Origin: an uncultured Spirochaetaceae bacterium
GTDB lineage: Bacteria; Spirochaetota; Spirochaetia; Sphaerochaetales; Sphaerochaetaceae
Assembly: GCA_944392965.1 (NCBI GenBank)
Contig: CALXYM010000002.1
Location: 248,001 to 312,000 of the forward strand
Length of the DNA stretch: 64,000 nucleotides
Reading direction: 5' to 3'
The translations under genes were made by a program, and so were the position numbers. Shown here piece after piece: positions 7,155 through 63,227 of this stretch. A model generated the notes under the pieces. The model did no database searches. It saw only the letters and a program-made list of their open reading frames with translations, and was not told the DNA's origin. Each line of letters opens with the position of its first letter. Position 1 is the first letter of the stretch.

Positions 7155-7166
7155 TTCCACCTCAAC

Positions 7167-43922: not shown

Positions 43923-46103
43923 TCAATCAGTCAAGATTACTGTTTTCTTAATTAAATCCTCATCCTTGGAACTCAGTCCGATGAAAAAATCAAATTCTCC
44001 TTTTTCCAGTTGGAAATTAAAATCAGTATCATAAAAGCCAAGTTCTTTGACATCCAAATCAAAGCTCAAGACCTTTTTCTCTCCTGCAGCCAATTGAACC
44101 CTTTTGAACCCTTTCAGCTCTTTTTTGGGCCGAGCAATCAATGCAACCTTATCTCTCATATAAAGCTGAACTACGACATCCCCTGATACAGTTCCAATAT
44201 TCTCAACGGTTAGAGAAACAGAGAAAGCTTTATCTTTTATCGATATGTTCATGGGAACATTGAAGTCCTCTACCTTGAAATCTGAATAGCTCAAGCCATA
44301 TCCAAACGGATAAAGAGGTTCAACTGGCCCATCTAAGTATTTAGATTCAAAATGTTCCGTACTGCCGGGAAAAGTTGGCCGGCCTGTGTTTAGAGCGTTA
44401 TAGTATACGGGAATCTGGCCAATAGAATAAGGGAAGGACATCGTCAATCTACCTGAGGGATTCGCTTTTCCCGAAAGAAGCTTAGCAATAGCACTTCCAG
44501 CCATACTGCCAAGATCCCAAGCAAGAAGGATTGCATCAAGTCTATCCTTGTATTCAGTAAGAATTAACGGCCTTCCTGTTACAAGTACCATTATCGTGGG
44601 TTTTCCAACTTTCAGAATTTCCTCAATGAGTTTTTTCTGCATTCCAGGAATGGTTATATCCAGTCTGGAGCAGGCCTCTCCACTTATGACACTGCTTTCA
44701 CCAACAGCAAGGACTACAAAATCAGATGTCTTTGCAATATTAACAGCCCTTTCAATACCACCATCGAGTTCATCAAATATCTCTGTAGCTTTCTCTACTG
44801 TGACATTCTTAAAACCTTCTTTTAAAAGACCATCATAAATTGTCACCGTATCTCCACGATGATGGGTAAAGCTCCAAGCCCCGGCATGATCAGGATCTGT
44901 CGCATATGGGCCAACAAGGGCAATCTTACTGTCTCTGTCCAACAGCGGCAAAACGCCATTGTTCTCTAACAAGACTGCACTTTGTAATGCAATCTCCTCC
45001 GCTTTGGCTAAATGCTTCACCGAAAATATGTCTGTCTTGATTTTCTCTGGATTGATGTGCAAGAAAGGATCATCCATCAATCCAATCTCATACTTCTTAG
45101 TAAGAATTCTTGCAACAGACTCATCAAGAAGTTTTTCATCAAGTATTCCTTTTCTCACTAAGTCTGGAATGAAAGAGATATAATAATTGGTGGTCATCTC
45201 AATATCCATGGTAGTGTTGAAACAGCGGATTGCCGCCTCTTTCTCATCAGAAGCAACACCATGTTTCATAGTCTCCATAAACGCACTGTAATCTGAAATA
45301 AGGAGACCAGAGAACCCTAATCTATCGCGGAGGAGATGACGGGTATATTTCTCATTACATACCATAGGAATACCGTCTATAACATTGAAAGAGGTCATGA
45401 CAGAATCAGCACCAGATTCAATCCCCTTCCTAAATGGAGACAAATATGTGTTATAAAGTGTGGTAGGAGAGAGTTCAACAGTATTATAATCTCTACCAGC
45501 TTCGGCAGCTCCATAGCCCATAAAATGTTTCAGGCAACTCAGAAGATGCCCATCACGGAACCCTTTTACCTGGGCTTCTGCTATCTGTGCCCCAAGGAAA
45601 GGATCCTCTCCGGCACTTTCACATACCCGCCCCCATCTGGGATCCCTCACGATATCAACCATCGGGGAAAAGGCAAGATCAACACCGGAGCACCCAGCTT
45701 CTTCAGCAGATATAGCAACACACTCCCGTATCAGTTCAGGATTGAATGAGCAGGACCAAGCAAGAGGAATCGGGAATACCGTCTCAAATCCATGTATCAC
45801 ATCCTGACAGATTAGCAAAGGGATTCCTAACCGGGATTCATTTACGGCAATTTCCTGCAATCTTCTGACCTTCATCGCCAGTTTCTCTGGTTCGTCTACC
45901 TGAATCATTGAACCTACAAACCCCTTGCGGATAAGCGCCTCTGTATCCAGAACAACACTGCTAGCTCCTATTGCAGTTATATCTGCCCCCACAGACTGAA
46001 AAAGCTGCCCTGCCTTCTCTTCCAATGTCATCTTGGAAATCAACTCGGAAACCGCCTGCTTTATTTCTTTTTCTGATTTCAGATTCGTCCTATATGCCTT
46101 CAT
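43923..46103 (-). CDS. Glycoside hydrolase family 3 beta-glycosidase (BglX-like, cytoplasmic)
   Basis: 726 residues and no signal peptide. The GH3 N-terminal domain contains GIPLLICQDVIHGFETVFPI, KHFMGYGAAEAGRDYN and the nucleophile Asp about 271 in LLISDYSAFMETMKHG. The alpha/beta sandwich follows, and then a fibronectin-III-like domain (…YPFGYGLSYSDFKVEDF… to the end). Most enzymes with this architecture release glucose or xylose from the non-reducing ends of beta-linked oligosaccharides. AGGGAG precedes the ATG. It follows the TIM-barrel gene by 19 bp, in the same operon. Confidence 0.92.
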   Translation of the reverse strand: MKAYRTNLKSEKEIKQAVSELISKMTLEEKAGQLFQSVGADITAIGASSVVLDTEALIRKGFVGSMIQVDEPEKLAMKVRRLQEIAVNESRLGIPLLICQDVIHGFETVFPIPLAWSCSFNPELIRECVAISAEEAGCSGVDLAFSPMVDIVRDPRWGRVCESAGEDPFLGAQIAEAQVKGFRDGHLLSCLKHFMGYGAAEAGRDYNTVELSPTTLYNTYLSPFRKGIESGADSVMTSFNVIDGIPMVCNEKYTRHLLRDRLGFSGLLISDYSAFMETMKHGVASDEKEAAIRCFNTTMDIEMTTNYYISFIPDLVRKGILDEKLLDESVARILTKKYEIGLMDDPFLHINPEKIKTDIFSVKHLAKAEEIALQSAVLLENNGVLPLLDRDSKIALVGPYATDPDHAGAWSFTHHRGDTVTIYDGLLKEGFKNVTVEKATEIFDELDGGIERAVNIAKTSDFVVLAVGESSVISGEACSRLDITIPGMQKKLIEEILKVGKPTIMVLVTGRPLILTEYKDRLDAILLAWDLGSMAGSAIAKLLSGKANPSGRLTMSFPYSIGQIPVYYNALNTGRPTFPGSTEHFESKYLDGPVEPLYPFGYGLSYSDFKVEDFNVPMNISIKDKAFSVSLTVENIGTVSGDVVVQLYMRDKVALIARPKKELKGFKRVQLAAGEKKVLSFDLDVKELGFYDTDFNFQLEKGEFDFFIGLSSKDEDLIKKTVILTD

Positions 46104-46122: not shown

Positions 46123-47247
46123 TCAATCTGTATATTTCAAACACCAGTCCATTACTGCGTTCTCTGACCCCTCTCTTTTGTATAAGTTGTACCCAAAATA
46201 TTGGAAGCCCTGAACAAAATCGTATTTTTCTCTATAAAATTCATAAGTTGCAGAAAGAGCTTCTCTTTTTGCGACCATATCTTTTACAAGTCCTGCAGAC
46301 TGCTGCGTTGGTTTTTTATTGTTGTATTCTGCTGTATGAATACCCCACTCCATAACCAGAGGCGGAATACTTCCATCCTCATTTTCATATTGCTTTATGA
46401 ATGTATTCATACTGATTGAAAGTCGATCCGCATTAATAAGATCCTGATGGGTCCACGATGAATCAGGGAGTTCTTCATATTTTGAACTAGCCCAATCATT
46501 AAAATTATATCCTCTTAGTGGATATGAATAGTTATTCATAAAATACCCATCAGCTCCGGCACTTCTGTAGCTGGGAATATTGAAATCGTTCTGCCACCCA
46601 TAGAACACGCTCAAATAAAGAGGAATATCTGCCCCATATTTAGCCATCTCATTCCTCATAAGACGGACCAATTCCTCTGCATATTCAACTTGAGCATCAA
46701 TCCAGGCTTCAGAATTAAGGCCTCCCGCATTTTCCTGCACATTCCCATCGTCAACAGGCATGTTCAAAGCAAAATACGCAACTTGGTTTCTACGCTCTGG
46801 GGCACTTGTATATTCAATCAAGTCCTTATAGCTATCAAGTACTTTCCTTGCATCACTAAGGCTGAAAGCAAAATCTGAATCGTAGCCTTCTATTCTCACT
46901 GCAATTTTCATATCCAGATCATCCAGAGCTGAAAAAAGTGCATCCTTTACAGAATTTGATGTATTTTCAAGACCATAAACGGTGATTGTATTCAAATGGG
47001 CTTCTGTTTTTGCTTTCCTCAATTCACTGAAAATGGCAGAATGAGCACTTGGCAACTCATATGTCGCACCACAGAGAAACTCCTCATAATTTAAATTCTG
47101 AGGATATGGCGTGTAAATTTCAACCTCATCTCCATCATAATCCCCGCCTGGAGGGATAACTACATCATTATTACCATTTATTGAAATATCGCATGCCATA
47201 AGAATCAGTAAAAGTGAAAACGCCATAATACTCAGCAGTTTTCGCAT
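46123..47247 (-). CDS. Lipoprotein with TIM-barrel domain; unrecognised putative glycoside hydrolase
   Basis: 374 residues from the ATG at 47247, preceded by AAAGGAGGAG. Lipoprotein signal …LLSIMAFSLLLILMAC. The catalytic-type core reads as eight beta-strands alternating with helices: …TITVYGLEN, …KIAVRIEGY, …VAYFALNMPVDD, …LYLSVFYGWQNDF, …GADGYFMNNYSYP, …PLVMEWGIHTAEYN and …GFQYFGYNLYK. The Glu in VMEWG sits where clan GH-A nucleophiles lie. I recognise no known family. A paralogue opens the other operon at 62149. It leads a likely operon with GH3, binding protein, CBM lipoproteins and porin. Confidence 0.7.
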   Translation of the reverse strand: MRKLLSIMAFSLLLILMACDISINGNNDVVIPPGGDYDGDEVEIYTPYPQNLNYEEFLCGATYELPSAHSAIFSELRKAKTEAHLNTITVYGLENTSNSVKDALFSALDDLDMKIAVRIEGYDSDFAFSLSDARKVLDSYKDLIEYTSAPERRNQVAYFALNMPVDDGNVQENAGGLNSEAWIDAQVEYAEELVRLMRNEMAKYGADIPLYLSVFYGWQNDFNIPSYRSAGADGYFMNNYSYPLRGYNFNDWASSKYEELPDSSWTHQDLINADRLSISMNTFIKQYENEDGSIPPLVMEWGIHTAEYNNKKPTQQSAGLVKDMVAKREALSATYEFYREKYDFVQGFQYFGYNLYKREGSENAVMDWCLKYTD

Positions 47248-47283
47248 TTTCTCCTCCTTTTTTATAGTCATATTAAATGCAAA

Positions 47284-47337
47284 ATCTTGTACCCGAAACG
47301 GCGAAAATCGACGAATATTTCTCAGATTTTGACTTTT
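47284..47337 (-). promoter_or_regulatory. Conserved ~55-bp element upstream of operon 2 (candidate AraC-type activator site)
   Basis: The block runs, on the plus strand, from AATCTTGTACCCGA through AACGGCGAAAATCGAC to TTCTCAGATTTTGACTTTT and is closely matched at 62225-62279. On the minus strand it ends 12 nt upstream of a TAATAT (-10-like, 47270-47275). No good -35 box is seen, as expected for activator-dependent promoters. Confidence 0.6.
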
Positions 47338-47889
47338 TTATTTTAGAGTTTGGAATAACATGTATTTAATTTCTAAACAACTATAGTCACAAACAGAGAA
47401 GCATATCACTCAGCCATATTACTCCTCTTAAACAACTTTTAAATAGTCCTACTTACTTCTATTCCAATTCTGAATAGTACCATCGACAAAAATAAGAGTG
47501 TTTTTGTCCATGTAGCTCGGATACAATAGAATCACCTTAGAGATTCTGCAAAAGAAAATGCAACATAGACTAAATGATCTAATAGTCAAAAACTATTATC
47601 GAATAACGGCTCACATGTACCAACAGAATTAAAAGTCTTGAATATCCTCAATTCTCTTTACATGACATAAAAGCATAACTGAAGTAATCCACAACCATTT
47701 ACTTAGGGGCATAGGAAATAATATGGCAATAAAAAACTACTTTTTAGGAATTTATCTTTTATACTAATACGAAATCTCCTCTATCCTAGTGATATTCTTA
47801 ACACCATGCTACCAGAACCAGCTTTTATAAGGCAGCAGAAACATATTCACTATTTCAACATACAAAATGCTGAAACCTCCTTTTTTGAA
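47338..47889. other. Intergenic region between the two polysaccharide operons
   Basis: About 550 bases, A+T rich, between the operon 2 leader and the stop of the last operon 1 permease. I find no convincing gene on either strand, no clear RNA fold and no strong terminator for operon 1. The region may hold decayed sequence. Confidence 0.5.
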
Positions 47890-48831
47890 TCAGCCAACAA
47901 TACCTGAGCGTTCAATACTCTGTGTGAATTGACGCTGAAATACAAGATACAGAATCAATACAGGTATTATGGAAAGGAGCACACCTGACTGAAGTAGCAA
48001 TATTCCCTCATAAGGATTTGAATTCTGCTCGTACTGCATTATATAGCTAATATTGTTGAAAAGTATTGAAAGCTGATTCATGACGGTCTTTGCCCTTGGC
48101 ATTAAAGATGATGTATATACATAATCATTCCAATACCATACAAAAGATAGCAGGAATGATGTCACAAGCGAGGCTTTCGAGTTTGGAAGCATAATCCTGT
48201 AATACGTTCTGAAAAAAGACAAACCATCAATATATGCGGCCTCTTCAAGCTCTTTTGGCATTCCTCTGAAAAACTGTCTAAACATGAATATAATAATTCC
48301 AGAACGTATTCCTAGTCCCAAAACCGCAGGAAGAAAAAACGCCAGATTACTATCAATCAGATTTATATTAATATCATTCCCAGATATTAGGCTTACAAGA
48401 GATGAAAATCCAAATGGATTGAAATACCTGAACTCAATATAATTTGGAATCACATAAGTCTGAGGGGGAACGATGATGATTGCAAACATAAGTGCCGATA
48501 TAATCTTTTTTCCTTTAAAATTGAATCTAGCAAGACCGTATCCAGTGAGAGAACATGAGGCTATCTGTAGAAGGCAGGATACGCCATCTCTAAAAAACGA
48601 TCCAAGTAATGATCTCCCATAATCCATTCTTTCCATAACATTTCGAATGTTATCCAATGTGAAATGCCTCGGAACAAGAATCACAAGAGGATCATATAAA
48701 TCCTGAACATCCCTCAAGGCAACAGAGAGCGAATAGAAAAAAGGATAGACGATAATAACACTCAATCCAGCAAGAAACATGAAACGAAATAGCGTTTTTA
48801 CAAAATTCAATACCACCTTTTTGCTCTTCAT
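47890..48831 (-). CDS. ABC transporter permease, MalG-like (polysaccharide locus, second pair)
   Basis: 313 residues with six membrane segments. The EAA loop LEEAAYIDGLSFFRTYYRIM is typical of CUT1 permeases. Last gene of operon 1. AGGAGGGG precedes the ATG. Together with the upstream permease it probably works with the binding protein at 42577-43863. Confidence 0.9.
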   Translation of the reverse strand: MKSKKVVLNFVKTLFRFMFLAGLSVIIVYPFFYSLSVALRDVQDLYDPLVILVPRHFTLDNIRNVMERMDYGRSLLGSFFRDGVSCLLQIASCSLTGYGLARFNFKGKKIISALMFAIIIVPPQTYVIPNYIEFRYFNPFGFSSLVSLISGNDININLIDSNLAFFLPAVLGLGIRSGIIIFMFRQFFRGMPKELEEAAYIDGLSFFRTYYRIMLPNSKASLVTSFLLSFVWYWNDYVYTSSLMPRAKTVMNQLSILFNNISYIMQYEQNSNPYEGILLLQSGVLLSIIPVLILYLVFQRQFTQSIERSGIVG

Positions 48832-48840
48832 TTCCCCCTC

Positions 48841-49725
48841 CTATTCAACCGTATAAACAACATGCTTATCGATAAAGATAAGGACCAAAGCGACTATGGC
48901 GCCCACAACAATAAAGTACATCCAAGAAAGGCCAGCTGCATATTCAAACCGCATATTACCAGTCTGTTGGTTTATGAGTTTTATTACAGGATTGGTTGAT
49001 GTCGTAAAATAATCTGCAAGTATATATATAGTGTTCATAAGAATCATCGGAGATATTGAAGGAAATGTTATCTTCCAAAACTGTTCCCATCCTGTTGCCC
49101 CCTCAATTCTTGCTACCTCATATAATGCTTCCGGTACCGTCTGGAGTGCGGCCAGAAACATTAGAATAGGGACCCCTGAACTCCAGGCAAGGTTGAATAT
49201 GGAATGGGCAAAAGGTATCAAGACCTCTATCAAGTCAGGGGAAAATCCTATCGACAAAAGCATCTCAGAACTGTCTACGGTCGCAAAAAGACTAGACCCA
49301 GCATCTCCTGCCATTATCCGACTTGAGAGGAAATCACTTTGAAGAATTTCCATTATTATTCCATTAACCACAATCACAGGAAGAAAAAAGACTGCTCTGA
49401 AAAACAACCTGCCTTTGAATTTCTGGTTCAGTATTACAGCTACAAAAAGACTGAGCATGAGAAGAACGGGAACCCTTAATACCATATCACGTACAGATTC
49501 AACAATTGTCCGCACATATGTTGGATCAACAAATAATGCCTGTCTGAAATTTCTGAACCCAACAAACGTCGTCTCAAGCCCCTCAGGTGTAAAGGTGAGT
49601 ACGGAAAAAGCATAAATGATTGAAGTCAATGCTGGTTTAAGGAAAAATAGGAATATTCCAATCAAAAAAGGAATACAGAACAGAAATCCTGCTCTGCTTT
49701 TCTTTGCCTGTAAGTTTCTATTCAT
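48841..49725 (-). CDS. ABC transporter permease, MalF-like (polysaccharide locus, second pair)
   Basis: 294 residues with six transmembrane segments, and the cytoplasmic loop LYEVARIEGATGWEQFWKIT, the CUT1 EAA motif. It overlaps the DUF5696 stop by ATGA with GAGGAGGT in the overlap region. Confidence 0.9.
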   Translation of the reverse strand: MNRNLQAKKSRAGFLFCIPFLIGIFLFFLKPALTSIIYAFSVLTFTPEGLETTFVGFRNFRQALFVDPTYVRTIVESVRDMVLRVPVLLMLSLFVAVILNQKFKGRLFFRAVFFLPVIVVNGIIMEILQSDFLSSRIMAGDAGSSLFATVDSSEMLLSIGFSPDLIEVLIPFAHSIFNLAWSSGVPILMFLAALQTVPEALYEVARIEGATGWEQFWKITFPSISPMILMNTIYILADYFTTSTNPVIKLINQQTGNMRFEYAAGLSWMYFIVVGAIVALVLIFIDKHVVYTVE

Positions 49726-51680
49726 CGTACCTCCTCAATTGAATAAGAAAGAGAAGCATAATCTGTCGTGACTACATATCCATTATCAAATACAGTTCTT
49801 GACAAATTATCGTTGATCCGCTCATGAGAAACTATCTTCACGGAACTTATCAATGAAATATCACCAATATAGGAATCAAGAGAATTAATGATATATTTTA
49901 TATCATCATCACTTGAGATCTCATAATTCAGACACGCTCCTGTCTCCATTGATTTCAAAATCAAATACATTGGATTATCGGATCTGTTTATCGCATCAAA
50001 GGAATAAGATACCAACCCGCTTAAAACGATTTCATAAAAAGGTATTTCATAATCGAAGATGTTCGCCCTACTTGAAATATATGGAGCGGAAAGGACAGCA
50101 ATCGCATTAGCCAAGCTGTAATAGTTTCCTCCATAAACAAGGTAAGATTCTATTTCATTGAGCTTATCTTCTACAACAGACGTATAACTATCTTTGGACA
50201 TCTGTTGTTCATCACTGAAATCGGAATATATGAAGTTCCCTACATCGATATAGCTGGACAGGAAATGAGCCCCCTCGTCAAAAACAAAATCCACATTTCT
50301 GACATTAAGCAGATACTCCGCACTATCCTGATCAGCAATAGAACTTGCAGGATTGTATTCATAAATTCTTGAAGGCCTTCCTGAAAGATCCCTAACAGAA
50401 CCCTTCTCCCTTGATGTTGTCCTTATAGGAGATACGCAGGCAGATAGTAGTATTCCATGCTGGCTTGCATATTCAACCAACTTTTCCATCTCTTTTTTCC
50501 TCCCAAGTGATGGAACAAATTTAAAATTCTCCTGATTATGTCCTCTTAATACACGACTATTCCAATCCTCAAAATTTACAATTAAAGAGGACGGATCTGA
50601 AACAGAAAGAAGGAAATCGAGAATATCTGAATAACCGATAACACGATGATTAAGAGAAAACGGCATAGGAATACCTAAAACTTCCATATCCTTGTTTTCT
50701 GCACATTTAACAGTGATCACAGCAGCCTTGTTATCTGCTTTATTGTAATCAAGATATAGATCCTTGAATGTCTCTGCCATTGATGCATATCCATCTTCCC
50801 CACATGCTGTATATGTAACCTCAAACATACCGTCAAAAACACGAGGGCTTTCATAAACTATCTGTGAAGCATCGGAAGCGATACTCTCCTCTATACTTGT
50901 TCTTATATTGAACTGGAAAAAGGCAATATTATATGGATTATTGGTATTTGCCGTGCTACATACGATATTCGCCATGGCTGCAGAGGATGAAGCGACCGCG
51001 ATCATACAACCATAGCCCTCTTTATCAATACCTATCATAGGAAGGATAACAGGAAGAGAAGAAGTCACGCGGACCTCCCTGGAATCAACCATATCATCTC
51101 CATAGACCGATTTGTTATATGTACCACCCTTTCCGTTATTAAAATTCACAACTGCACCACATCCATCAGGAATCACGAAATAACCTTTATCCTCCACACT
51201 ACTTGCAGAGAAAAAAGGAAGAAACTGAATGGAAGTGATAAAAAGTTCTTCACTTTCTACAAATGATTCGGTGTCAATACTTACATGAAGGCCGTCTTCA
51301 CGAAGAAATATTGAAGAAGAAAAACCTATGCCATCATCAAAAGAATAGGTTATCGTAATTCCGTTATCGATTTTAGAATAGGAAACTTCATCCGCTACAT
51401 CAGAGTTAAGTGTTATTATACGGTTGGACTGAGGAGCAATCGCAGTAACAGAGAACAGACTCTGGGAACGTACTCTCTGAGCACCTCTTAATCTGAAGGA
51501 ACCTATCATCGCCCTATCAGCAACCAATGGCCACTCGGCAGAGGAATAAGAAAAGAGCATCTCATAATTTCCATCATTAAATGTCAGTTTGTAATCACCA
51601 CATTCGAAATCAAGGACAGCAGCAGAGACCAAAGAAATAGAAAGAATAAAAAAACAAAACAAAAATATCATCTTTTTCAT
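49722..51680 (-). CDS. DUF5696-type secreted protein
   Basis: 652 residues with signal peptide MKKMIFLFCFFILSISLVSA. A long N-terminal beta-sandwich region (…VITLNSDVADEVSYSKIDNG…) is followed by an alpha/beta stretch (…GIPMPFSLNHRVIGYSDILD…, FDYEIPFYEIVLSG…). It resembles the DUF5696 proteins found, from memory, next to Yip1 proteins and paired ABC importers in glycan-utilisation clusters of Paenibacillus and relatives. The N-terminal sandwich plus probable (beta/alpha)8 portion suggests a glycoside-hydrolase-like architecture, but no catalytic assignment is made. Confidence 0.65.
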   Translation of the reverse strand: MKKMIFLFCFFILSISLVSAAVLDFECGDYKLTFNDGNYEMLFSYSSAEWPLVADRAMIGSFRLRGAQRVRSQSLFSVTAIAPQSNRIITLNSDVADEVSYSKIDNGITITYSFDDGIGFSSSIFLREDGLHVSIDTESFVESEELFITSIQFLPFFSASSVEDKGYFVIPDGCGAVVNFNNGKGGTYNKSVYGDDMVDSREVRVTSSLPVILPMIGIDKEGYGCMIAVASSSAAMANIVCSTANTNNPYNIAFFQFNIRTSIEESIASDASQIVYESPRVFDGMFEVTYTACGEDGYASMAETFKDLYLDYNKADNKAAVITVKCAENKDMEVLGIPMPFSLNHRVIGYSDILDFLLSVSDPSSLIVNFEDWNSRVLRGHNQENFKFVPSLGRKKEMEKLVEYASQHGILLSACVSPIRTTSREKGSVRDLSGRPSRIYEYNPASSIADQDSAEYLLNVRNVDFVFDEGAHFLSSYIDVGNFIYSDFSDEQQMSKDSYTSVVEDKLNEIESYLVYGGNYYSLANAIAVLSAPYISSRANIFDYEIPFYEIVLSGLVSYSFDAINRSDNPMYLILKSMETGACLNYEISSDDDIKYIINSLDSYIGDISLISSVKIVSHERINDNLSRTVFDNGYVVTTDYASLSYSIEEVR

Positions 51681-51683
51681 CGC

Positions 51684-53717
51684 TTACCTCCTTAACGTGA
51701 TCTCATTGAAAATAATCGAAAAAATATTCACAGTGTTCTCCATCAAAATCACGAAGAGGAACATAAGGAACAGGACAAAAGCCATACCTATAAGTGTTAT
51801 GAAAAAATTCTTCATCATTTTGCCTGCCGTATATTCATGTACTGTAGCAACTGAAAGTAATAGGATTATCAAAGCATAGAGATAAGAGAACGCTTCAATC
51901 CAATATATGAATGCACCTTCCTCTAATGTAAGAATCCAAGAAAAAATAAGGTTTACAATGGAAGCAATTTCAACAGGAATAAGTGCGTAGGACGAGGCAC
52001 AATAGATATCCTTATATGTACCCTTTCCATCAGATATCGTACTCACCGCCCAGTTGATAGTCACCCATAGGAAAAAAAGTCCAATGGTATTCATTAAGCT
52101 GACAAGAATATTGAACTCATCCCTTACATTTTTATTGAACGCATATCCTGTCGAGAAATAACTGATGACATTCAAAAAGAAGAAGATTATAACAAAAGTT
52201 GAAGCCAATACTGTCGAAAATTTCTTTTTTACTTTCATTTCCCACATCAAATCGGAAGGATGGAGCATGGGAGAAAAGACATTCCTAATCCTCGATAGGA
52301 AACTGAAATGGAAACTTGTTTTTCTTTTCACTACCTGATAAACAAACAATAAAAGCAGGATAAACCCAATAATCAAAGAGAGATTACGCCTAGCCCATTC
52401 CAGACGAATCATATCAAAGACATTTGAATACTGTTCCCTGTCTCCAGACCTTCTAAGTTCTTGAAGGGCCAATGAAGTCTCCCCCATCTTCTGATATGCC
52501 TTGCCAAGACCAAGATGAGCAAACTCCAAATTAGGATTAATTCTCAAAACTTCTTCAAAATAAGGCATGGCTTCCGTATACAGTCCATCAGAGAACAAAG
52601 CTGAAGCGGAAAAAAGGCAACTTCCATAATAGTTTTTCTCGAATACCGTTACGCTTGAGTCCCCTTCATCAAGAACATAGATATGATCATCATCACTCTC
52701 AATATGCTGGGGATCGGTAAACGTACCCCACTGATTTCCTTTTCCTCCGATTATACTCAGAAGCTTTCCATCCCTATCATAAGTGAAAATCCTTCCTCTT
52801 GCGGCATCGAGAGCACACAGGAAACCATTATGTATGTCAACGTCGATAAACCGACTAGAAGATTCAAGACCTTCCACAACTTCATCCGCAGGAATAATAT
52901 CACCAAAGGTCAGATTATCATCATCCCAAATCCCTTTTCCAGATGGATTTATCTTCCTTATCTTCATCGATTCGTTTGCGATATTGAAAGAACAGGTATA
53001 AACAAAGTCCTCTTCATCTATATCAAAAGATGAATATGCAACAGGAACAAAACGTTCCATGGCATCTCTCTGAGTTCGATTCAAAAGTTTTTTCCAGTTC
53101 TGGTCAAGACGTTCTGCAAGCGTCAGCTCGGTTGGATTCGCCCCATAATACCCAAGAAACGTCACATCTCCTCCCGATGAATCAGATACAGGACTGAATA
53201 GCAGAGCTCCATAATAAAGATCATCCACCAGTACATATATGTTTCCTGCACTATCGACAATTACTTTGGATGGAACAAAAGGAATGTTTACTCCCAAACT
53301 GGAGGTATCAGGATTTTCAATTTCAATCGCCAGAGAAAGATCCTTCTTGCTGAAAGCAAGAACCTTTCCTGCGCCTCTATCAGCAATATAATAGTATTCA
53401 TCCGAGATAAACAAACCGGAAGGTTCAGAAAAGAGATAAGGTGATCCGTCACTATTGAGAAAACTTATAACATCGCCATCCTCAGTTCTAACGTTCTTCA
53501 GCCCTGAATCAAGGATATAGAGATGATTTTCAAAAATGAATATGTCCGTATAGAGACTCTCTTTCTCTGTTGGATATATTTTCTTTTTAAAATCATAAGG
53601 AGAAGGACTTCCTACAGCTTCATCATCGCTGGTATATATGTACGAAGAAGTTGGAATCTGAACTGCGTAAACGGATGAGAGAACCAATAAGAATAGAATG
53701 AATAGTACCTTACGCAT
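51684..53717 (-). CDS. NHL-propeller, TPR and Yip1-domain membrane protein
   Basis: 677 residues: signal peptide (MRKVLFILFLLVLSSVYA), an NHL-type beta-propeller (about 45-370) with repeats such as GLFISDEYYYIADRGAGKV and HIYVLDEGDSSVTVF, a TPR-like helical segment (about 380-435, including YTEAMPYFEEVLRINPNLEF), and a membrane domain with about six segments resembling Yip1 (about 455-677). The propeller is extracytoplasmic and could bind glycan or proteins. It appears beside DUF5696 and two importers and probably organises the import machinery; this is inference. Start supported by CAAGGAG. Confidence 0.75.
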   Translation of the reverse strand: MRKVLFILFLLVLSSVYAVQIPTSSYIYTSDDEAVGSPSPYDFKKKIYPTEKESLYTDIFIFENHLYILDSGLKNVRTEDGDVISFLNSDGSPYLFSEPSGLFISDEYYYIADRGAGKVLAFSKKDLSLAIEIENPDTSSLGVNIPFVPSKVIVDSAGNIYVLVDDLYYGALLFSPVSDSSGGDVTFLGYYGANPTELTLAERLDQNWKKLLNRTQRDAMERFVPVAYSSFDIDEEDFVYTCSFNIANESMKIRKINPSGKGIWDDDNLTFGDIIPADEVVEGLESSSRFIDVDIHNGFLCALDAARGRIFTYDRDGKLLSIIGGKGNQWGTFTDPQHIESDDDHIYVLDEGDSSVTVFEKNYYGSCLFSASALFSDGLYTEAMPYFEEVLRINPNLEFAHLGLGKAYQKMGETSLALQELRRSGDREQYSNVFDMIRLEWARRNLSLIIGFILLLLFVYQVVKRKTSFHFSFLSRIRNVFSPMLHPSDLMWEMKVKKKFSTVLASTFVIIFFFLNVISYFSTGYAFNKNVRDEFNILVSLMNTIGLFFLWVTINWAVSTISDGKGTYKDIYCASSYALIPVEIASIVNLIFSWILTLEEGAFIYWIEAFSYLYALIILLLSVATVHEYTAGKMMKNFFITLIGMAFVLFLMFLFVILMENTVNIFSIIFNEITLRR

Positions 53718-53720
53718 AGC

Positions 53721-54593
53721 TCACTCCTTGATTCCTGAAGCTGCCATGGTTTCAAGAACTTGACGTTGAGTCAAAAAGAAGATTATAACAGGTGGCAACA
53801 TTAGAAGTATTGTAGCAGCCGCTCCCTCCCCTGCACGGGAAATTCCTCCGGCAATAAGCTCATTCATAACAGATGGAAGAACTTTATGGCTTTCATCATA
53901 AATAAATCCAGCTCCCGTATTATTCCATAAGTTCTGGAATGTAAAAAGTATGAGTGTCATGATAGCCGGTTTTACGACGGGTATCACAACTGACCACAGG
54001 AGTCGGAATTCACTACACCCATCTATTCTTGATGCTTCAATGAGGGAAACAGGTATCATCTGTATGAGAAACTGACGCATCAGGAATACACCAAATGGCA
54101 TTGCTAGTATTGGAAGAAGTAACGCGAAATAAGTGTTGAGCATATGAAGTTTCGCAATTATGAGATACTGTGCAACCGCAGTCACAGGACTCGTAAAAAG
54201 AAGCGCCTTAACGATGAGATCAGATATGATATTTTTCCCTTTAAAACATCCAAAAGCCAAGGAATAAGATGCCATAGAAGCAATAATGACATATACTACA
54301 GTACCAATTACAGCTACAGAAACGCTATTGAATACATATCGGCTGAAAGGGACAAATAAAGAATCTGCTAAACGAAACAGGTTTCTATAGTTATCAAAAG
54401 AAGGATTATGAACAAAGAAGCGAGGTGGAAAAGCAAATATCTCCTCATATGGTTTCAATGACTGCATTATCGAATAGACCAATGGGAACATCATGAAAAT
54501 GCTTAACACAATAAGAAAAAGGAAAATCATAGATGTCCCAAACTTAGATCTATTTACTCCGTTACCGACCTGCGCCTTAAAAAAATTCTTCAT
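53721..54593 (-). CDS. ABC transporter permease, MalG-like (polysaccharide locus, first pair)
   Basis: 290 residues with six membrane segments. The EAA loop is LIEASRIDGCSEFRLLWSVV. It begins 10 bp after the upstream permease and ends 3 bp before the Yip1 protein gene. Confidence 0.9.
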   Translation of the reverse strand: MKNFFKAQVGNGVNRSKFGTSMIFLFLIVLSIFMMFPLVYSIMQSLKPYEEIFAFPPRFFVHNPSFDNYRNLFRLADSLFVPFSRYVFNSVSVAVIGTVVYVIIASMASYSLAFGCFKGKNIISDLIVKALLFTSPVTAVAQYLIIAKLHMLNTYFALLLPILAMPFGVFLMRQFLIQMIPVSLIEASRIDGCSEFRLLWSVVIPVVKPAIMTLILFTFQNLWNNTGAGFIYDESHKVLPSVMNELIAGGISRAGEGAAATILLMLPPVIIFFLTQRQVLETMAASGIKE

Positions 54594-54603
54594 AATCCTA
54601 TCC

Positions 54604-55512
54604 TCAAGCAGAATGCCTTTTCAGAAAGGCCTGAATTACATGATTAAAAGAAAGCATCATAATAAAAAGAAAAACAGCAATGGCACACGCATACCCCATT
54701 TCCATACGTGTAGTCCCAACATCGGTCATATGCGTAACAATTGTTGTCGCAGCATTATCAGTGGCGATACCATCAATTGCCGTACCTGCGGAAATAAGCA
54801 GCTGCTGCCCTACTGCACCAGCAGCAAAACTTGCCCCAATCTGCATTACAGCACCAAACAAAAGTTGAGGCCCCATATTGGGAACAGTAATAAACCAGAA
54901 CTCCTGAAACCTGTTTGAAATTCCATCAATTGCAGCAGCCTCATACTGTTGTCTGTCAATTCCCTGAAATCCAGCAAGGAAAGAGAGAAATGCAGTTCCC
55001 AAACTCAGCCAGAGCTGAATTATGATTATCACAGGCATGATATAGGCCGTATCAGAGAGCCATTGTACCGGTTCGTTAATAAAACCAAACTTGATAAACA
55101 AGTTGTTAATGAATCCATATTGATCGCCCGAAAAGACATAAGCCCATACTGTGTAGGCACCAGTAAACATGGATGGCACATATAGACAGAAAGTAAAAAG
55201 CGATCGAACTTTTGGATTTAACTCATTTACTAGCCATGCGAGAAAAAGACATGCAATATAGCTTATCGGCCCAGTAATAAGGGCAAAAAGAAGTGTATTC
55301 TTGAATGCGGTAAGAAATACATCATCATCCAAAAACATCCTGATATAGTTATCCAGCCCTACAAAGGATGGAAACTGCACAAGATTGAAATCAGTAAAAC
55401 TCAACACAACTGCAAGTAGAACTGGAATAACTATGAAGAGCAGAAAAAGTGAAAGAAACGGAATGAGCATAATCACATGTTCTGTCGCCATTGATAACCT
55501 TTTGTCTTTCAT
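54604..55512 (-). CDS. ABC transporter permease, MalF-like (polysaccharide locus, first pair)
   Basis: 302 residues, six transmembrane segments, and the EAA loop QQYEAAAIDGISNRFQEFWF. It overlaps the stop of the large binding protein (ATGA), with which it should form a complete importer apart from the ATPase. Confidence 0.9.
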   Translation of the reverse strand: MKDKRLSMATEHVIMLIPFLSLFLLFIVIPVLLAVVLSFTDFNLVQFPSFVGLDNYIRMFLDDDVFLTAFKNTLLFALITGPISYIACLFLAWLVNELNPKVRSLFTFCLYVPSMFTGAYTVWAYVFSGDQYGFINNLFIKFGFINEPVQWLSDTAYIMPVIIIIQLWLSLGTAFLSFLAGFQGIDRQQYEAAAIDGISNRFQEFWFITVPNMGPQLLFGAVMQIGASFAAGAVGQQLLISAGTAIDGIATDNAATTIVTHMTDVGTTRMEMGYACAIAVFLFIMMLSFNHVIQAFLKRHSA

Positions 55513-58139
55513 TTCTTCACCTCTAATCCGATTTCCGTTCTTTTCCTCTGTATTTCCCTATCTATAACAGAAACATATCTCTCAAGCATTTCCCTTGCAT
55601 TCTTTCCATCAAGGACAACACTACGGAAAGCACTGACTATGTTCCGCTGCGTATAGTAAGAACCGGGTATCTGCTCAATTTGAACAAGATTCTCTCTTGC
55701 TGCAAGAATCAGATCAGTCTCTTCTGGAAGCCAAGGAAGATTTACTATGACATCATCACTGGCAGAAGAATATCGTCCTGCTGGTCCTAATAGGCTTTCA
55801 ATCCTGTTCCCATATTCCTGCTGCACATCTACAGAAACAAACCACTTCAAGAATTCCCATGAAGCATAAATATTCTCTGAATCCTTTAAAATCACGGCTC
55901 CCTGCCCTGATGACACAGCAGTTGCACCATTTTCCCCATTACTGGGAATCTTCGCCACTCCATACAACCCCCTCAGTTCAGGTGCAGCAAACGCAAGCTT
56001 GCCATATTCGGTATAATCAGCAATGGCAAGTGGCATCTCCCCCGACCTGAACCTATTGAAGAAATCATAAGATAGGCTCAGCCCATAATCGCTGAATAAC
56101 CTCGTATAGAGAAGAAAAGCATTATAGCTCTCATTACTCGAAAGAACAGTAGAAGTCTTATCAGCAGAATATATTTGCCCACCATTTTGGAACAACAAAG
56201 TAAGAAAAGTTGTCCAAGAGGATGGCACCCCGACCTCCATATTGTTACGTTGAATTATCGGGATAATCGAAAGAAATTCCTTCCATGTTTTCGGGACCTC
56301 TATTCCCAGCTCTTCAAACACATCCAATCTGTAAAACATGAGAGGAAAAACTTCCGTCAAAGGTAATCCATAAATCTTATCAAGATAAGAGTAAGGAATA
56401 AGAGAAGATCTGTCAGAGTAAGAATCTACAATCTGATAGAAATCAGGAAACTCACTGAGAGGATATAATGCATCCCGCATGGCAAGAGTAACGGGAATCG
56501 TATTTCCAAGAAACAAGACAACATCGGGGCCAGCACCAGCAAGAATAGCCTGTTCTATTCCTGTCTGTACAAGATTAATATCCACTTCAATTCCCGTCTC
56601 AGGGGTAAAATACTCATCGATAAGGGCAGATACGACCTCCATCTGATCTCTTCCCGCCGATACCCAGACCGTTATATCTCCTCCTTCTTTTTCATCAGAT
56701 TCAAAAGAGTGAATCAAAGTACGGATTGAATAGACTAAATTGTTAAACCAGCTTTTATGAGGTTCCGTAGCAACAGCATCTCCCGAGGTCAGTTCAATCC
56801 AATCGAGATCTAGAGGTTGTTCTTGACTCTGATATACCCAACTTGACAAAGAGGAAATATTACCTCTGAATGTTGCAATCCTTGATGGAATTGATTCAGG
56901 TTCTTCATTAAATGACTTAATTTGTTCAATCAACGCACTTATCTGAGAATAAGATGCCTCCGAACCAGAAAAATCCTGAAGCATTCTCTCTGCTTCTACA
57001 AGAGAGGAAAGAGCTGAATTAAACTCGTCCATTATTCCAGGAATTTCCCTGTCTATATTATATTCCCGATTCAAGTCTGGACTAGTTCCCGTTACCATGA
57101 TAATTCTGCGATATATTGAATTAAGCTCATCAACAATATCAAGGATATCAGAAAGGACATATGCATATGGCCCTGATATGACTTCAAGAGTTAAAATATG
57201 CTCACCTTTCTCAAGATATACTCTCTCTCCACCCACATCATTTATAGACCAGATATCAGTATAAGGAAATTCAACCATATCAAACTTTTGGGAATAAACA
57301 GCTGAATCAACTATTACTCTACGGTATACCGAAAATCCCTTTTTTAAATTTTGTCTGTATTTAAAGTTCAGTGTATAGTAAGCTGATTCAGGAATTTCCA
57401 CTTTCCAAGACATGATATCACCATCGGAATTCCAAGACGAACCACCAGCGATATTCAGTACTATAGAATCTGGATTACTTGGACTCGTATCTGCACTGCT
57501 CCGGTCCATCTGACTTGTCAAAGTTGTGGAAGAAGTTGCATAGATGTCTTCTGCCTCTATATGGATAAGCCTGTCCGTTCCTTTCGATAGAGGTATCTCT
57601 GAGGAAGGATAAATTTCTTGTACAGTATTGAAAGAAACAGAAATAAGAGAAAAATCCGTTCTTCTCGCAACTATCTCCAAGGAATGTTCTCCTTCTTCAA
57701 GAACAACAGAATAATTTGAGTTCTCAGAATTATTCTTCACCCGTAAATACGCACTTTGTGCATCTTCAGAAATCCACGTCAAAGCCCGCTGCTCATCTCC
57801 ATTATCATCTACTCGGATAGGTCCATACTCGTATATCCTGTTTATGGAGAAAAAAGATTCCGAAAGGAGTTCACCATCAAGGATGAAAAAAAGCTCTATA
57901 TCATCATATCTACCTTTACCTGAGATATAACTTAAAACTATATTGTACTCATTTGTTTCAGGTATGTTGAACTCTGCCTTTACCGCTCCTCCGTATTCTT
58001 CCCATACAAGATAATCTGAATCCATATAAATTCCAGATTTCGCATCATATGTAAAATCGGAAGCGTTCAGATTAATACTTTCTGCAAAAAGCAGGGAAAC
58101 AGAAATACCTAAGAACAGAAGGACAAGCAACCTTTTCAC
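55509..58139 (-). CDS. Very large substrate-binding protein with N-terminal carbohydrate-binding-like domains
   Basis: 876 residues from a GTG at 58139 that follows GGAGG by 7 nt; a TTG at 58145 is too close to the ribosome-binding site. Signal peptide (KRLLVLLFLGISVSLLFAES). Two beta-rich modules occupy about 20-195 and 205-340; the second has IHIEAEDIYATSSTTLT, a CBM6/35-like start. A helical stalk (about 350-460) is followed by a family-1 solute-binding domain from about 485 (DITVWVSAGRDQMEVVSALI). The usual length of this family is 400-450, so this doubles it. The start overlaps the GH3 stop (GTGA). Confidence 0.82.
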   Translation of the reverse strand: MKRLLVLLFLGISVSLLFAESINLNASDFTYDAKSGIYMDSDYLVWEEYGGAVKAEFNIPETNEYNIVLSYISGKGRYDDIELFFILDGELLSESFFSINRIYEYGPIRVDDNGDEQRALTWISEDAQSAYLRVKNNSENSNYSVVLEEGEHSLEIVARRTDFSLISVSFNTVQEIYPSSEIPLSKGTDRLIHIEAEDIYATSSTTLTSQMDRSSADTSPSNPDSIVLNIAGGSSWNSDGDIMSWKVEIPESAYYTLNFKYRQNLKKGFSVYRRVIVDSAVYSQKFDMVEFPYTDIWSINDVGGERVYLEKGEHILTLEVISGPYAYVLSDILDIVDELNSIYRRIIMVTGTSPDLNREYNIDREIPGIMDEFNSALSSLVEAERMLQDFSGSEASYSQISALIEQIKSFNEEPESIPSRIATFRGNISSLSSWVYQSQEQPLDLDWIELTSGDAVATEPHKSWFNNLVYSIRTLIHSFESDEKEGGDITVWVSAGRDQMEVVSALIDEYFTPETGIEVDINLVQTGIEQAILAGAGPDVVLFLGNTIPVTLAMRDALYPLSEFPDFYQIVDSYSDRSSLIPYSYLDKIYGLPLTEVFPLMFYRLDVFEELGIEVPKTWKEFLSIIPIIQRNNMEVGVPSSWTTFLTLLFQNGGQIYSADKTSTVLSSNESYNAFLLYTRLFSDYGLSLSYDFFNRFRSGEMPLAIADYTEYGKLAFAAPELRGLYGVAKIPSNGENGATAVSSGQGAVILKDSENIYASWEFLKWFVSVDVQQEYGNRIESLLGPAGRYSSASDDVIVNLPWLPEETDLILAARENLVQIEQIPGSYYTQRNIVSAFRSVVLDGKNAREMLERYVSVIDREIQRKRTEIGLEVKK

Positions 58140-60406
58140 CTGCAAGCCTCCAGATTTTTTGTATTTACGGTTGCTATCAGCTCATCCATTATATCGTTAT
58201 TCAAAACATTATCAGTCAAAACAGTAATCATACGAAGGGGAATCTTATTGACCTGCTCATCGCTTTCCCCATTCTTCTTAAATATTGGAAGCTTCTGAGC
58301 CTGCATGTTTCCACTCTCTACAAGAATCCTTTTTATTTCCTTATAAGCCTCTTCGCCCGCCACTGTCGCTCTCAGTTCACCAACCGAACTCCAACCGGTT
58401 ACTTCTTCATACTTCATCTTTTTCGGAATGATATTAATTGCTATTGATGTGACATCATCTACTGAACTTGTCGCTATGATAATCTTGTACTCCCCTTCTG
58501 AGGCATACCAGTCTTTTAAATCTGGATCAAAATATTCAAAAGCCTTTTCCGTTAAAGAGAAATTAATACCTTTTTCCTCTCCTGCTGCGAGGTATACACG
58601 TTTAAATGCAACAAGAACACGTTTAGGTCGAGGAATTCGTGACAGAGGAGGTTCCACATATATCTGAACAGTCTCACTGGCATCGACATCTCCCGTATTT
58701 TTCACGCTGATATTGAGATCCGCATTATTTCCTTTTATCCTATATCCCTTGACATGTATGTCAAATCGTGAATAAGAAAGACCATATCCAAACGGATATT
58801 TCATACTGATTTTCTTTGAAAGGTAATACCTATATCCAACAAAAACTCCCTCGGAATAATTAACCGTACCAGAATATCCTGGGTAATATAAATAAGCAGG
58901 AGTCTGCTCGATAGAATAAGGGAATGTCATGGGGAGCTTTCCTCCTGGGCTGACAATTCCATATAGAAGATTTGTAACTGCACCTCCGATACACTGACCA
59001 GCAAGGAACATCTCAAGAACAGCGGAAGAACTAGAATCCCAACTGGTATCAACAGGAGAACCATTAAGAAGAACCACAACCAAATTATGATTAGCCTCAT
59101 AGAGCCGCTCAATAACACTTATATGAGATTGTGGAATGAACAGATTCTTCCTGTCTTTTCCTTCCGCCTCTATCCCATCAGGAAGCCCAGCAAATACAAC
59201 TATCTTATCTACCTTAGCTGCTTTCTCGATAGCTTCATTCAATGAGAAATCCAGAATATTTGATTTAGAATCATAACATTCGGAGAAGTATACATTTTCT
59301 CCTCCGATTTTCTTCATCTCCTCAAGAGGGATCTCAAAGCTTGTAGGATTTACAAGAGCACTGCCTTCCATTTTAAATCGTGGGTTAATTGCAAAATTTC
59401 CACAGACAAGAACCCTTTCCGACTTTTTCAGAGGCAAGACACAATTGTCATTCTTCAGCAAAACTGCACTTTTCTGAGCCATCTCTCTAGAAAATGAATT
59501 ATGATCAGCCTCAATGTAGCAAGGAATCCTTTTTCTTCCTTCATGTACTCTTTCAAGTGTTTTAAGGATATGAGAACAAGCAGTATCTATAACGTTCATG
59601 GAAAGAGTTCCATCCTCATAAGCCTTCATAAGTCTCTGCTCGCTAACACCATAATTATAAGGCATCTCAAGATCCAAACCAGCCTTCAATGCCCTTTCCC
59701 TATTGTTAACCCCACTCCAATCACTCATCACCAAGCCATCGAATTTCCATTCATTCCTTAAAATCTCATTGATCAAGTGCTCGTTCTCAGAACAGTAAGA
59801 TCCATTGACTTTATTCAATGCAGTCATGATTGCCCACGGATGAGATTTCTCATTTGCAATCTCAAACACCCTGAGATAGATTTCCCTAAGAGTTCTCTCT
59901 TCAACTACAGCATCAATATATTCCCTGTCTATTTCTTGGTTATTTGCAGCAAAATGTTTAAGGCAGGTACCGACACCTTGACTCTGCACCCCATTTATAT
60001 AGGAAGCAGCTATTTCCCCAGCCAAAACAGGGTCTTCAGAATAATACTCAAATGTCCTGCCACATAAAGGAGTACGTATGATATTAACAGCAGGGCCCAA
60101 AAGAATATCAACACCAAGTTCTCTAGCTTCTGCTGCCAAATGCTTTCCCATCTCCTCTGCTAAATCGACATCAAACGAGGATGCAAGTCCTGGACCAGAT
60201 ACATACGCAGTAGCGGGAACACTCTTATTCCACCCCATGTGATCACATAGCCCAGTCTGTTTTCTAACACCATAAGGACCATCTGCAACCTCAAATGAGT
60301 CTATGTCTTTTTCTGGATAATCCTTTGTTCTCCAGAAATCCTTTCCACTCAGCATTTTTATTTTCTCTTCCACGGTAAGAGACTCAAGTATCTTTTCTAT
60401 ATCCAT
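58136..60406 (-). CDS. Glycoside hydrolase family 3 beta-glycosidase
   Basis: 756 residues from the ATG at 60406; the frame extends to a TTG at 60436. No signal peptide, so probably cytoplasmic. The nucleophile is Asp about 229 in LVMSDWSGVNNRERAL, with KHFAANNQEIDREYI and the VADGPYGVRKQ substrate loop. The C-terminus has a fibronectin-III-like domain (…YPFGYGLSYSRFDIHVKGYR onward) plus ~90 further residues. The arrangement resembles ExoP/bacterial beta-glucosidase subgroups. The protein differs strongly from the other GH3 in the locus, so the two probably cleave different linkages. Confidence 0.92.
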   Translation of the reverse strand: MDIEKILESLTVEEKIKMLSGKDFWRTKDYPEKDIDSFEVADGPYGVRKQTGLCDHMGWNKSVPATAYVSGPGLASSFDVDLAEEMGKHLAAEARELGVDILLGPAVNIIRTPLCGRTFEYYSEDPVLAGEIAASYINGVQSQGVGTCLKHFAANNQEIDREYIDAVVEERTLREIYLRVFEIANEKSHPWAIMTALNKVNGSYCSENEHLINEILRNEWKFDGLVMSDWSGVNNRERALKAGLDLEMPYNYGVSEQRLMKAYEDGTLSMNVIDTACSHILKTLERVHEGRKRIPCYIEADHNSFSREMAQKSAVLLKNDNCVLPLKKSERVLVCGNFAINPRFKMEGSALVNPTSFEIPLEEMKKIGGENVYFSECYDSKSNILDFSLNEAIEKAAKVDKIVVFAGLPDGIEAEGKDRKNLFIPQSHISVIERLYEANHNLVVVLLNGSPVDTSWDSSSSAVLEMFLAGQCIGGAVTNLLYGIVSPGGKLPMTFPYSIEQTPAYLYYPGYSGTVNYSEGVFVGYRYYLSKKISMKYPFGYGLSYSRFDIHVKGYRIKGNNADLNISVKNTGDVDASETVQIYVEPPLSRIPRPKRVLVAFKRVYLAAGEEKGINFSLTEKAFEYFDPDLKDWYASEGEYKIIIATSSVDDVTSIAINIIPKKMKYEEVTGWSSVGELRATVAGEEAYKEIKRILVESGNMQAQKLPIFKKNGESDEQVNKIPLRMITVLTDNVLNNDIMDELIATVNTKNLEACR

Positions 60407-60451
60407 GTTACAAATATCTCTCCATTCTCTGAGCAAGTTTCTCTGATTCTA

Positions 60452-62149
60452 TTATCTAACTGATGGAATTCCTGAGAACCAAATCTGATCAAGAATAAAA
60501 CCATCGTTATTCACATAGATGGAAATGTCAGCATTTCTATAAACAGGAATACTAACCGATACACTTTTGAATTCATCGTCAGTTGGATCTACTTTGAATG
60601 ATGCGGTCTTTCCATCCAACATCAGTGTGATAATCGTCTCCTCATCAGCCTTGTAAGAAAGGGTAAGGCCATCTCCTCCCCTGACTCTCTTAAAAGTCAC
60701 TGCATTTTCAATTCCATTAATAAATTCTGCCGCATAACCATTGGAAGCCTCAACATCTTCAACAGGCAATGAATTGATTGAATATTCTGCTTCCATTTTA
60801 GATGAGAATAATATACTTTTAATCGTGATGACTCCCTGCTGTAATTCAACGGAGAAAGAAGCGTCATCTGCACCAATTACAGGAAGTCCCACAATACCGC
60901 CATCAGGATTTGCAGAGATATCGAAAGAACCTCTGCTTCTTCCATCTGAATAGAGTTTAATTACAGAATCAACGTCAGATTTATATTCTATGGATACCAT
61001 CTGTATTTCAGGACAGCTATCAAACCCAAGAGAAGCACCACCTTCAGATAATACAGCATTTCCATCTTCGTCCAATTGAACATTTCCGCTGAAAACTGCA
61101 TTTGAAACATCTGTCCATCCTTCCTGCAAGGGATAAGTAAGACACCAATCCAAAAGAGATGGAGGGTTACCTTCTTCTTTCAGAAGATTATAACCAAAGT
61201 ACAGACATCCTCTTACTTGAGGATAATTAGTCTTGTAGAAATCCACAGTTGCTTTAATTGCAATTTCTTTCATTGCTTTATCTTGTACGAGTCCTGCGGT
61301 CTGGTTAGGTCGTATACCATCATTAAATTCTATCGTATGAAATCCCCATTCCATGACGACAGGGGCATCACCATACTGCTTCTCATATGTCTTCATACTT
61401 ATGGCCAGACGTTCTGCATTTATAATATCTAACGGATTAGAAGATAAAAGGCTTTTATTATCTGGATACGTATAGTTATTTATAAAATATCCATCCGCTC
61501 CTGCATCTGTATAGGCAGGTGTTTTGAATGTATTATCCCATCCATAAAACACACTAAGATACAATTCTGCATCATTCCAACCATTATCAGCACATTCCTC
61601 TCTCATAAGTGCCACAATGCTTTTTGCATATTCCTTTTGAGAGTCAATCCAGTTCCTTGAATTAAGACCACCAGCATTTTTTTGTACGGATATATCGTCA
61701 ACAGGCATGTTTATAGCAAAATATGCAACCCTGTCACGTCTATCAGCATCAGAACAAAAAGCAATTAATTGAGAATAAGTATCAACAACCGTTCTGGCAT
61801 CTTTTTCTGAAAAAGAAAAATCTTGTGGATACGCCTCTATTCTTATAACTATTTTCATATCTAGACGTTCAAGTTCTTCAAATATATACTGCTGTACATT
61901 TTGAGAGAGACCCTCAAATCCATAAATTGTAATAGTGTTTATGTTGTATAATTTATTAGCCTTTTCCAGTTCTTGACTAAATTTTTCTTCATTAAAATTG
62001 CCTGTTCCCAGATCAAATGTCGCACCGTTATAAAATTCACAAGTGTCCACCTTTTCCGCATAAGGGGTCATTACCGATGCATAAACAGAAAATGATAAAA
62101 AACAAATAAGAAAAAAAACAAAAAGTCTCCTAATCCTGGATAACAGCAT
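60452..62149 (-). CDS. Secreted TIM-barrel protein plus C-terminal beta-domains; unrecognised putative glycoside hydrolase
   Basis: 565 residues with a signal peptide (…RLFVFFLICFLSFSVYA). Residues about 35-340 form a paralogue of the 46123-47247 protein, sharing RIEAYP, YFAINMPVDD, LYLSVFYGWDN, GADGYFINNYTYP, VVMEWGFHT (Glu about 267) and YFGYNLL. These map on eight (beta/alpha) strands. Residues 345-565 appear to be two beta-sandwich modules that may bind carbohydrate. First gene of operon 1, directly downstream of araC. TAAAAGGAG precedes the ATG. I know no family that matches. Confidence 0.7.
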   Translation of the reverse strand: MLLSRIRRLFVFFLICFLSFSVYASVMTPYAEKVDTCEFYNGATFDLGTGNFNEEKFSQELEKANKLYNINTITIYGFEGLSQNVQQYIFEELERLDMKIVIRIEAYPQDFSFSEKDARTVVDTYSQLIAFCSDADRRDRVAYFAINMPVDDISVQKNAGGLNSRNWIDSQKEYAKSIVALMREECADNGWNDAELYLSVFYGWDNTFKTPAYTDAGADGYFINNYTYPDNKSLLSSNPLDIINAERLAISMKTYEKQYGDAPVVMEWGFHTIEFNDGIRPNQTAGLVQDKAMKEIAIKATVDFYKTNYPQVRGCLYFGYNLLKEEGNPPSLLDWCLTYPLQEGWTDVSNAVFSGNVQLDEDGNAVLSEGGASLGFDSCPEIQMVSIEYKSDVDSVIKLYSDGRSRGSFDISANPDGGIVGLPVIGADDASFSVELQQGVITIKSILFSSKMEAEYSINSLPVEDVEASNGYAAEFINGIENAVTFKRVRGGDGLTLSYKADEETIITLMLDGKTASFKVDPTDDEFKSVSVSIPVYRNADISIYVNNDGFILDQIWFSGIPSVR

Positions 62150-62224: not shown

Positions 62225-62279
62225 AATCTGTACCACGATACGGCAAATATCGACAAGAAATTCTCAGATATTGACTTTT
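62225..62279 (-). promoter_or_regulatory. Conserved ~55-bp element upstream of operon 1 (candidate AraC-type activator site)
   Basis: On the plus strand AATCTGTACCACGATACGGC… CGACAAGAAATTCTCAGATA matches the element at 47284-47337. On the minus strand it ends 11 nt upstream of TATTAT (62212-62217). It partly overlaps the stop codon of the AraC-family gene, so araC's 3' end carries the site. Confidence 0.6.
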
Positions 62280-63121: not shown

Positions 63122-63227
63122 AATTTCACGTCTCCAGCTTTCATTATAACCTAAATTAATCAGAAATCGGATATACAGAAATTTAACAAATTCAGAACTT
63201 TCGACCATTAATAAGTAAGAGGACTTA

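Follow-up and report, generated by a model that had tools for sequence, protein, structure and literature searches.

A rare family of predicted exported proteins with a predicted clan GH-A type barrel and no β4 acid/base glutamate, with β-1,2-glucan as the leading candidate substrate

Two paralogous proteins encoded in the window, the whole stretch of 64,000 nucleotides that we analysed from an uncultured Spirochaetaceae bacterium, belong to a real and rare protein family which, as judged by sequence searches, is unrecognised by Pfam, NCBIfam and the PDB sequences. Their shared domain has a predicted (β/α)8 fold of the clan GH-A type, in which the glutamate at the nucleophile position is invariant and the usual acid/base glutamate is replaced. 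The function is likely to be that of a hydrolase or transglycosylase, and the neighbours of the homologues point to β-1,2-glucan as the most likely substrate.

The paralogues and their gene cluster

The two barrel genes lie in a cluster with the following genes (positions in the window).

42577..43863, minus strand: second solute-binding protein
43923..46103, minus strand: GH3 β-glucosidase of the BglX/Lin1840/JMB19063 clade
46123..47271, minus strand: short paralogue, 382 aa, with lipobox LMAC and a single predicted (β/α)8 domain
47890..49725, minus strand: another pair of ABC permease genes, assigned from the translated ORFs
49722..51680, minus strand: DUF5696 protein with an N-terminal hydrophobic segment
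51684..53717, minus strand: NHL/TPR/Yip1 membrane protein
53721..55512, minus strand: pair of ABC sugar permease genes, assigned from the translated ORFs
55509..58145, minus strand: solute-binding protein with an extra N-terminal region
58136..60436, minus strand: second GH3 β-glucosidase, best solved relative thermostable β-glucosidase B (7ms2)
60452..62149, minus strand: long paralogue, 565 aa, with a signal peptide, a predicted (β/α)8 domain at about 31-340 and a C-terminal β-rich part at about 345-565
62264..63481, minus strand: AraC-type regulator upstream of the long paralogue, found upstream of the pair also in relatives L007-L010

The genome that contains the window (2.43 Mb in 38 contigs, 95% complete) holds exactly two copies of the barrel protein. 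They are 53% identical over about 316 residues (residues 25-340) with an E value of 6e-92, which rules out a chance resemblance and bears out the initial annotation, according to which the two are paralogues with conserved blocks in common; the blocks that it quoted (NMPVDD, FYGW, ADGYF, MEWG and YFGYN) were all found. The long paralogue exceeds the short one by about 220 residues. The start of the short one is at 47271 or at an ATG at 47247 (374 aa), and the latter, which fits the lipobox LMAC better, is the likely start. Both proteins had been described as exported, and this agrees with the predictions, the short copy having its lipobox and the long copy its signal peptide in addition to the extra residues.

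Each gene had also been said to head an operon with a GH3 and an ABC importer. This is the case for the long paralogue, downstream of which are a GH3, a binding protein and two permeases; for the short paralogue a GH3 and a binding protein do lie downstream, but the nearest permeases are upstream (47890-49725). Also downstream of 46123-47271 are three genes whose putative products are two exported proteins of carbohydrate-binding type and one outer-membrane protein. GH3s and ABC importers were found near the barrel genes both in the window and in its spirochaete relatives. The binding protein at 55509-58145 is 878 aa long, with a long N-terminal extension and its SBP match at residues 505-775.

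The view that the pair comprises the sole possible exported depolymerases of the locus had to be given up, since the DUF5696 protein of the same cluster (49722-51680) has an N-terminal hydrophobic segment and could be an exported enzyme in its own right. The barrel pair has this protein as a companion in the window and at Oscillospiraceae-type loci (4052-6670 of L012), and none turned up among the neighbours examined in Paenibacillus and Micromonosporaceae. A literature search found no paper on DUF5696. Elsewhere in the window, one ORF (3367-4512, minus strand) fuses a HAD hydrolase with a cytidine deaminase domain, and a gene for a KptA/Tpt1 RNA 2'-phosphotransferase overlaps one for a microbial-type PARG (5924-7160, minus strand).

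Sequence novelty and distribution

Pfam gave no match for any of 20 family members, NCBIfam none for the two window proteins, and the PDB sequences none for either protein or profile, in line with the earlier opinion that the family is unrecognised; no significant sequence homology to any member family of clan GH-A was met in these searches. Alignment by hhalign to GH5 and GH2 profiles built from spirochaete relatives was not significant either (best E 0.12). Because Pfam often lags behind new CAZy families, the proteins could belong to a CAZy family, either distant or with a number already assigned, for which Pfam and NCBIfam have no model. We regard this as unlikely, as the PDB sequences were also without a match and the papers on β-1,2-glucan that we consulted describe no such protein.

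We scanned 84,980 species genomes with a profile of the family and obtained 10 loci, in two spirochaetes, three Ruminococcaceae/Avimonas, three Paenibacillus, Actinoplanes and Planosporangium. The two spirochaetes were, by identical sequences, the same-genus members of our sample of relatives, where the family is present in 2 of 59 genomes besides that of the window. It occurs in four of the 346 genomes of the Paenibacillus family, in 1 of 345 of the order of UBA5396, in six of 251 sampled Micromonosporaceae and in 1 of 395 genomes of the wider class; viral contigs and plasmids contained no relatives. The family is rare and patchy, being spread over Spirochaetota, Oscillospiraceae, Paenibacillus and Micromonosporaceae.

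The usual arrangement is two copies per locus, one short and often lipoprotein-like and one long and multidomain; the short copy stands alone in three Micromonosporaceae. The spirochaete relatives have a tandem pair, preceded by an AraC gene and followed by one GH3 gene, or by two in L009, and in the window the paralogues are about 13 kb apart within the same cluster. All six spirochaete proteins group in a single clade of the tree (100/99), and therefore the window pair stems from a duplication inside that lineage. The tree requires four changes between short and long forms, and the hypothesis that all long forms make up one clade of single origin was rejected (p-AU 0.00025), so the short-plus-long arrangement arose on several occasions. 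This points to a benefit from having an anchored and a multidomain copy side by side, with long branches and gene conversion as cautions on the tree. Paenibacillus loci also encode giant proteins that adjoin or are fused with the barrel domain (L041, 4478-12274, minus strand; L013, 13062-18743, plus strand; L050, 3398-11920, minus strand), and those scanned (L041 and L013) contain SLH, CBM35, CBM6 and alpha-1,3-glucanase D1 modules.

Predicted fold

We used two structural models. The first, of the whole long protein, was of middling confidence (pLDDT 74). The second, an AlphaFold model of the shared domain based on 27 aligned homologues (model residue n is protein residue n+23), reached a pLDDT of 93 and a pTM of 0.91, and its eight alternating strands and helices make up a complete (β/α)8 barrel. 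The TIM-barrel fold foreseen from the order of the conserved blocks is upheld by this confident prediction, in which NMPVDD, FYGW, ADGYF, MEWG and YFGYN match β4, β5, β6, β7 and β8, respectively.

Structure comparison with VIA listed 50 matches which, going by their titles, are clan GH-A glycosidases (GH5, GH2, GH164, GH1 and GH42), with Z scores of 18.8-20.2 and an rmsd of 3.2-4.5 Å over 245-290 residues. Matches of the same type were obtained with the first model, and Foldseek alone returned mixed TIM barrels with GH1, GH5 and GH26 prominent; the structural match lists cover the families that Foldseek ranked high. The proposed resemblance to clan GH-A is borne out among the matches listed (Z about 19-20). 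Since the VIA ranking is flat, no single GH family is favoured, and flat fold matches of this kind are by themselves no proof of common descent.

The candidate active site

The residues discussed here are encoded at the following positions.

46342..46353, minus strand: MEWG of the short paralogue, residues 307-310, with Glu308 as candidate nucleophile
46747..46764, minus strand: NMPVDD of the short paralogue, residues 170-175
61349..61351, minus strand: Glu267 codon of the long paralogue (VMEWG of β7), candidate nucleophile, invariant in 27 of 27
61694..61711, minus strand: NMPVDD of the long paralogue, residues 147-152, at the Asn-Glu-Pro position of β4 with Met for Glu; Asp151 invariant
61835..61837, minus strand: Glu105 codon of the long paralogue (RIE, end of β3), invariant in 27 of 27, candidate alternative catalytic carboxylate

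Invariance was counted over 27 homologues. The residues kept in all of them are Arg103 and Glu105 on β3, Pro149 and Asp151 at the end of β4, Tyr202-Gly203-Trp204 on β5, Asp219-Gly220-Tyr221 and Tyr226 on β6, Glu267, Gly269 and Thr272 on β7, Tyr317-Phe318 on β8, Glu326 and Asp334. The invariant glutamate that the initial annotation had placed on a β7-like strand is this Glu267, at the C-terminal end of predicted β7, where clan GH-A has its nucleophile; that role is putative here. NMPVDD had been placed at the β4 acid/base site without the Asn-Glu pair, and this too was confirmed: Asn is present in 26 of 27 sequences, followed at position 148 by Met (24) or Ile (3) and never by Glu, and then by Pro in all. 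This mapping is based on the predicted strand end and on the local alignment to the GH5 profile, non-significant at E 0.12, that sets Asn-Met/Ile-Pro (NMP) on Asn-Glu-Pro (NEP).

The family is like clan GH-A (GH5, GH2, GH164, GH1, GH42) in its predicted (β/α)8 barrel, its Glu at the end of β7, its Asn-x-Pro at the end of β4 and its VIA Z scores, and unlike it in having Met or Ile for the acid/base Glu throughout and no significant sequence similarity. With β4 Glu in none of the homologues and Glu267 in every one, the family retains the nucleophile site and either lacks the usual acid/base or has it elsewhere. As candidate replacements we name Asp151 and Glu105, and which of them, if either, serves as acid/base we can only infer. 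A literature search for clan GH-A enzymes without the Asn-Glu pair found none.

The loss of the canonical acid/base in all 27 homologues could mean that there is no catalysis, and other catalytic candidates (the GH3s and the DUF5696 protein) are close by, so that the barrel might be a glycan-binding pseudoenzyme that captures polysaccharide for the importers. We consider this quite improbable: the nucleophile-position Glu, Asp151, Glu105, Arg103 and many strand-end aromatics are strictly invariant, and because they are so across four lineages and in short and long copies alike, catalysis fits better than binding alone.

Gene neighbours and the candidate substrate

In the Micromonosporaceae a processive GT2 is present in exactly the same 6 of 251 genomes as the barrel family, neither occurs alone, and the two genes are divergent at all six loci (L042, L043, L044, L045, L046 and L047). 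Such co-occurrence would have a chance of about 3e-12 for independent genomes, which these are not. The divergent pair is possibly an exopolysaccharide synthesis module. The scores do not single out a product for the GT2: OpgH-type and PgaC-type models tie, with about equal scores, and cellulose synthase is likewise close. Among spirochaetes, Oscillospiraceae-type bacteria and Paenibacillus, the genomes with the barrel family lack this GT2, so the link is limited to Micromonosporaceae.

Opposite the pair at L042, and likewise at the counterpart locus L047, is an operon of the order SBP-ABC-ABC-GH1-GH3. The best PDB relative of the L042 GH1 is the sophorose-specific SGR_2426 (450 bits vs 364 for the next protein), and the features tied to sophorose preference are conserved in it, with Gln229, Trp291 and, at position 171, a hydrophobic residue (PMC12369401). 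For the L042 binding protein the best PDB relative is, narrowly, Lin1841 (228 vs 217 bits), a binder of sophorooligosaccharides. In S. griseus the SGR_2426 cluster includes a GH193 β-1,2-glucanase adjoining SGR_2426, and several related clusters are without one (PMC12369401); by analogy, the barrel pair would occupy the place expected of the β-1,2-glucanase in such a cluster.

In the window, the GH3 at 43923-46103 groups with JMB19063, Lin1840 and BT_3567 and keeps the equivalent of Lin1840 Arg572 and the subsite +1 aromatics. GH3s of the Lin1840 clade accept sophorose, and they also hydrolyse laminaribiose (PMC4757417). The latter activity would equally suit the same fold and catalytic role on another glycan (β-1,3-glucan, mixed-linkage glucan or an exopolysaccharide made by the GT2), as would the position of the GT2 equally near PgaC and cellulose synthase and the other carbohydrate-binding and SLH modules of the Paenibacillus relatives. 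We hold another glycan to be somewhat unlikely, because the L042 GH1 and binding protein, which have counterparts in L047/L015, both indicate β-1,2-glucan proteins.

The known β-1,2-glucanases of GH144, GH162 and GH192-194 (clan GH-S) share with the barrel family the proposed substrate and a gene context of GH1/GH3 and an ABC importer, but are inverting (α/α)6 barrels (PMC12102758), whereas the window proteins are predicted (β/α)8 barrels. PF10091, the Pfam family taken to represent GH144, was not found in the window genome. GH186 OpgG/OpgD, which stand beside OpgH, resemble the family at the Micromonosporaceae loci in pairing an exported glucan hydrolase/transglycosylase with a GT2 synthase; no sequence match to them was found, and the GH186 fold differs from the (β/α)8 barrel predicted for the window proteins.

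Discussion

We propose, at about even chances, that the barrel proteins are extracytoplasmic hydrolases or transglycosylases of the clan GH-A type that act on a β-glucan, most likely β-1,2-glucan, with Glu267 as nucleophile and a displaced acid/base. Glu267 on β7 would be the nucleophile, and the proton donor would have shifted to Asp151, three residues further along the β4 loop, or to Glu105 at the end of β3. The enzymes would cut the glucan outside the cytoplasmic membrane, the short copy being anchored to it and the long copy bearing extra β-rich domains; in some relatives the extra domains of the long copies are carbohydrate-binding or S-layer modules. The ABC importers would then take up the oligosaccharides, and the GH3 β-glucosidases would split them. 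A counterweight is that the β-1,2 clues come mostly from two Actinoplanes-type loci, and within the window from the GH3 alone.

A more far-reaching reading, which we put forward tentatively and with the chances against it, is that of a new GH family with a TIM-barrel β-1,2-glucanase whose acid/base is off the β4 Glu, and of an actinobacterial two-gene module of barrel and GT2 that works like OpgH with OpgG. If true, an unrecognised family would join a very large glycosidase clan with the conserved acid/base lost in every member, and concrete proteins are named here as candidates for testing. A TIM-barrel β-1,2-glucanase would be convergent with the (α/α)6 barrels of GH144, GH162 and GH192-194, and it would provide a candidate glucanase for the actinobacterial clusters that have an SGR_2426-like GH1 and no GH193.
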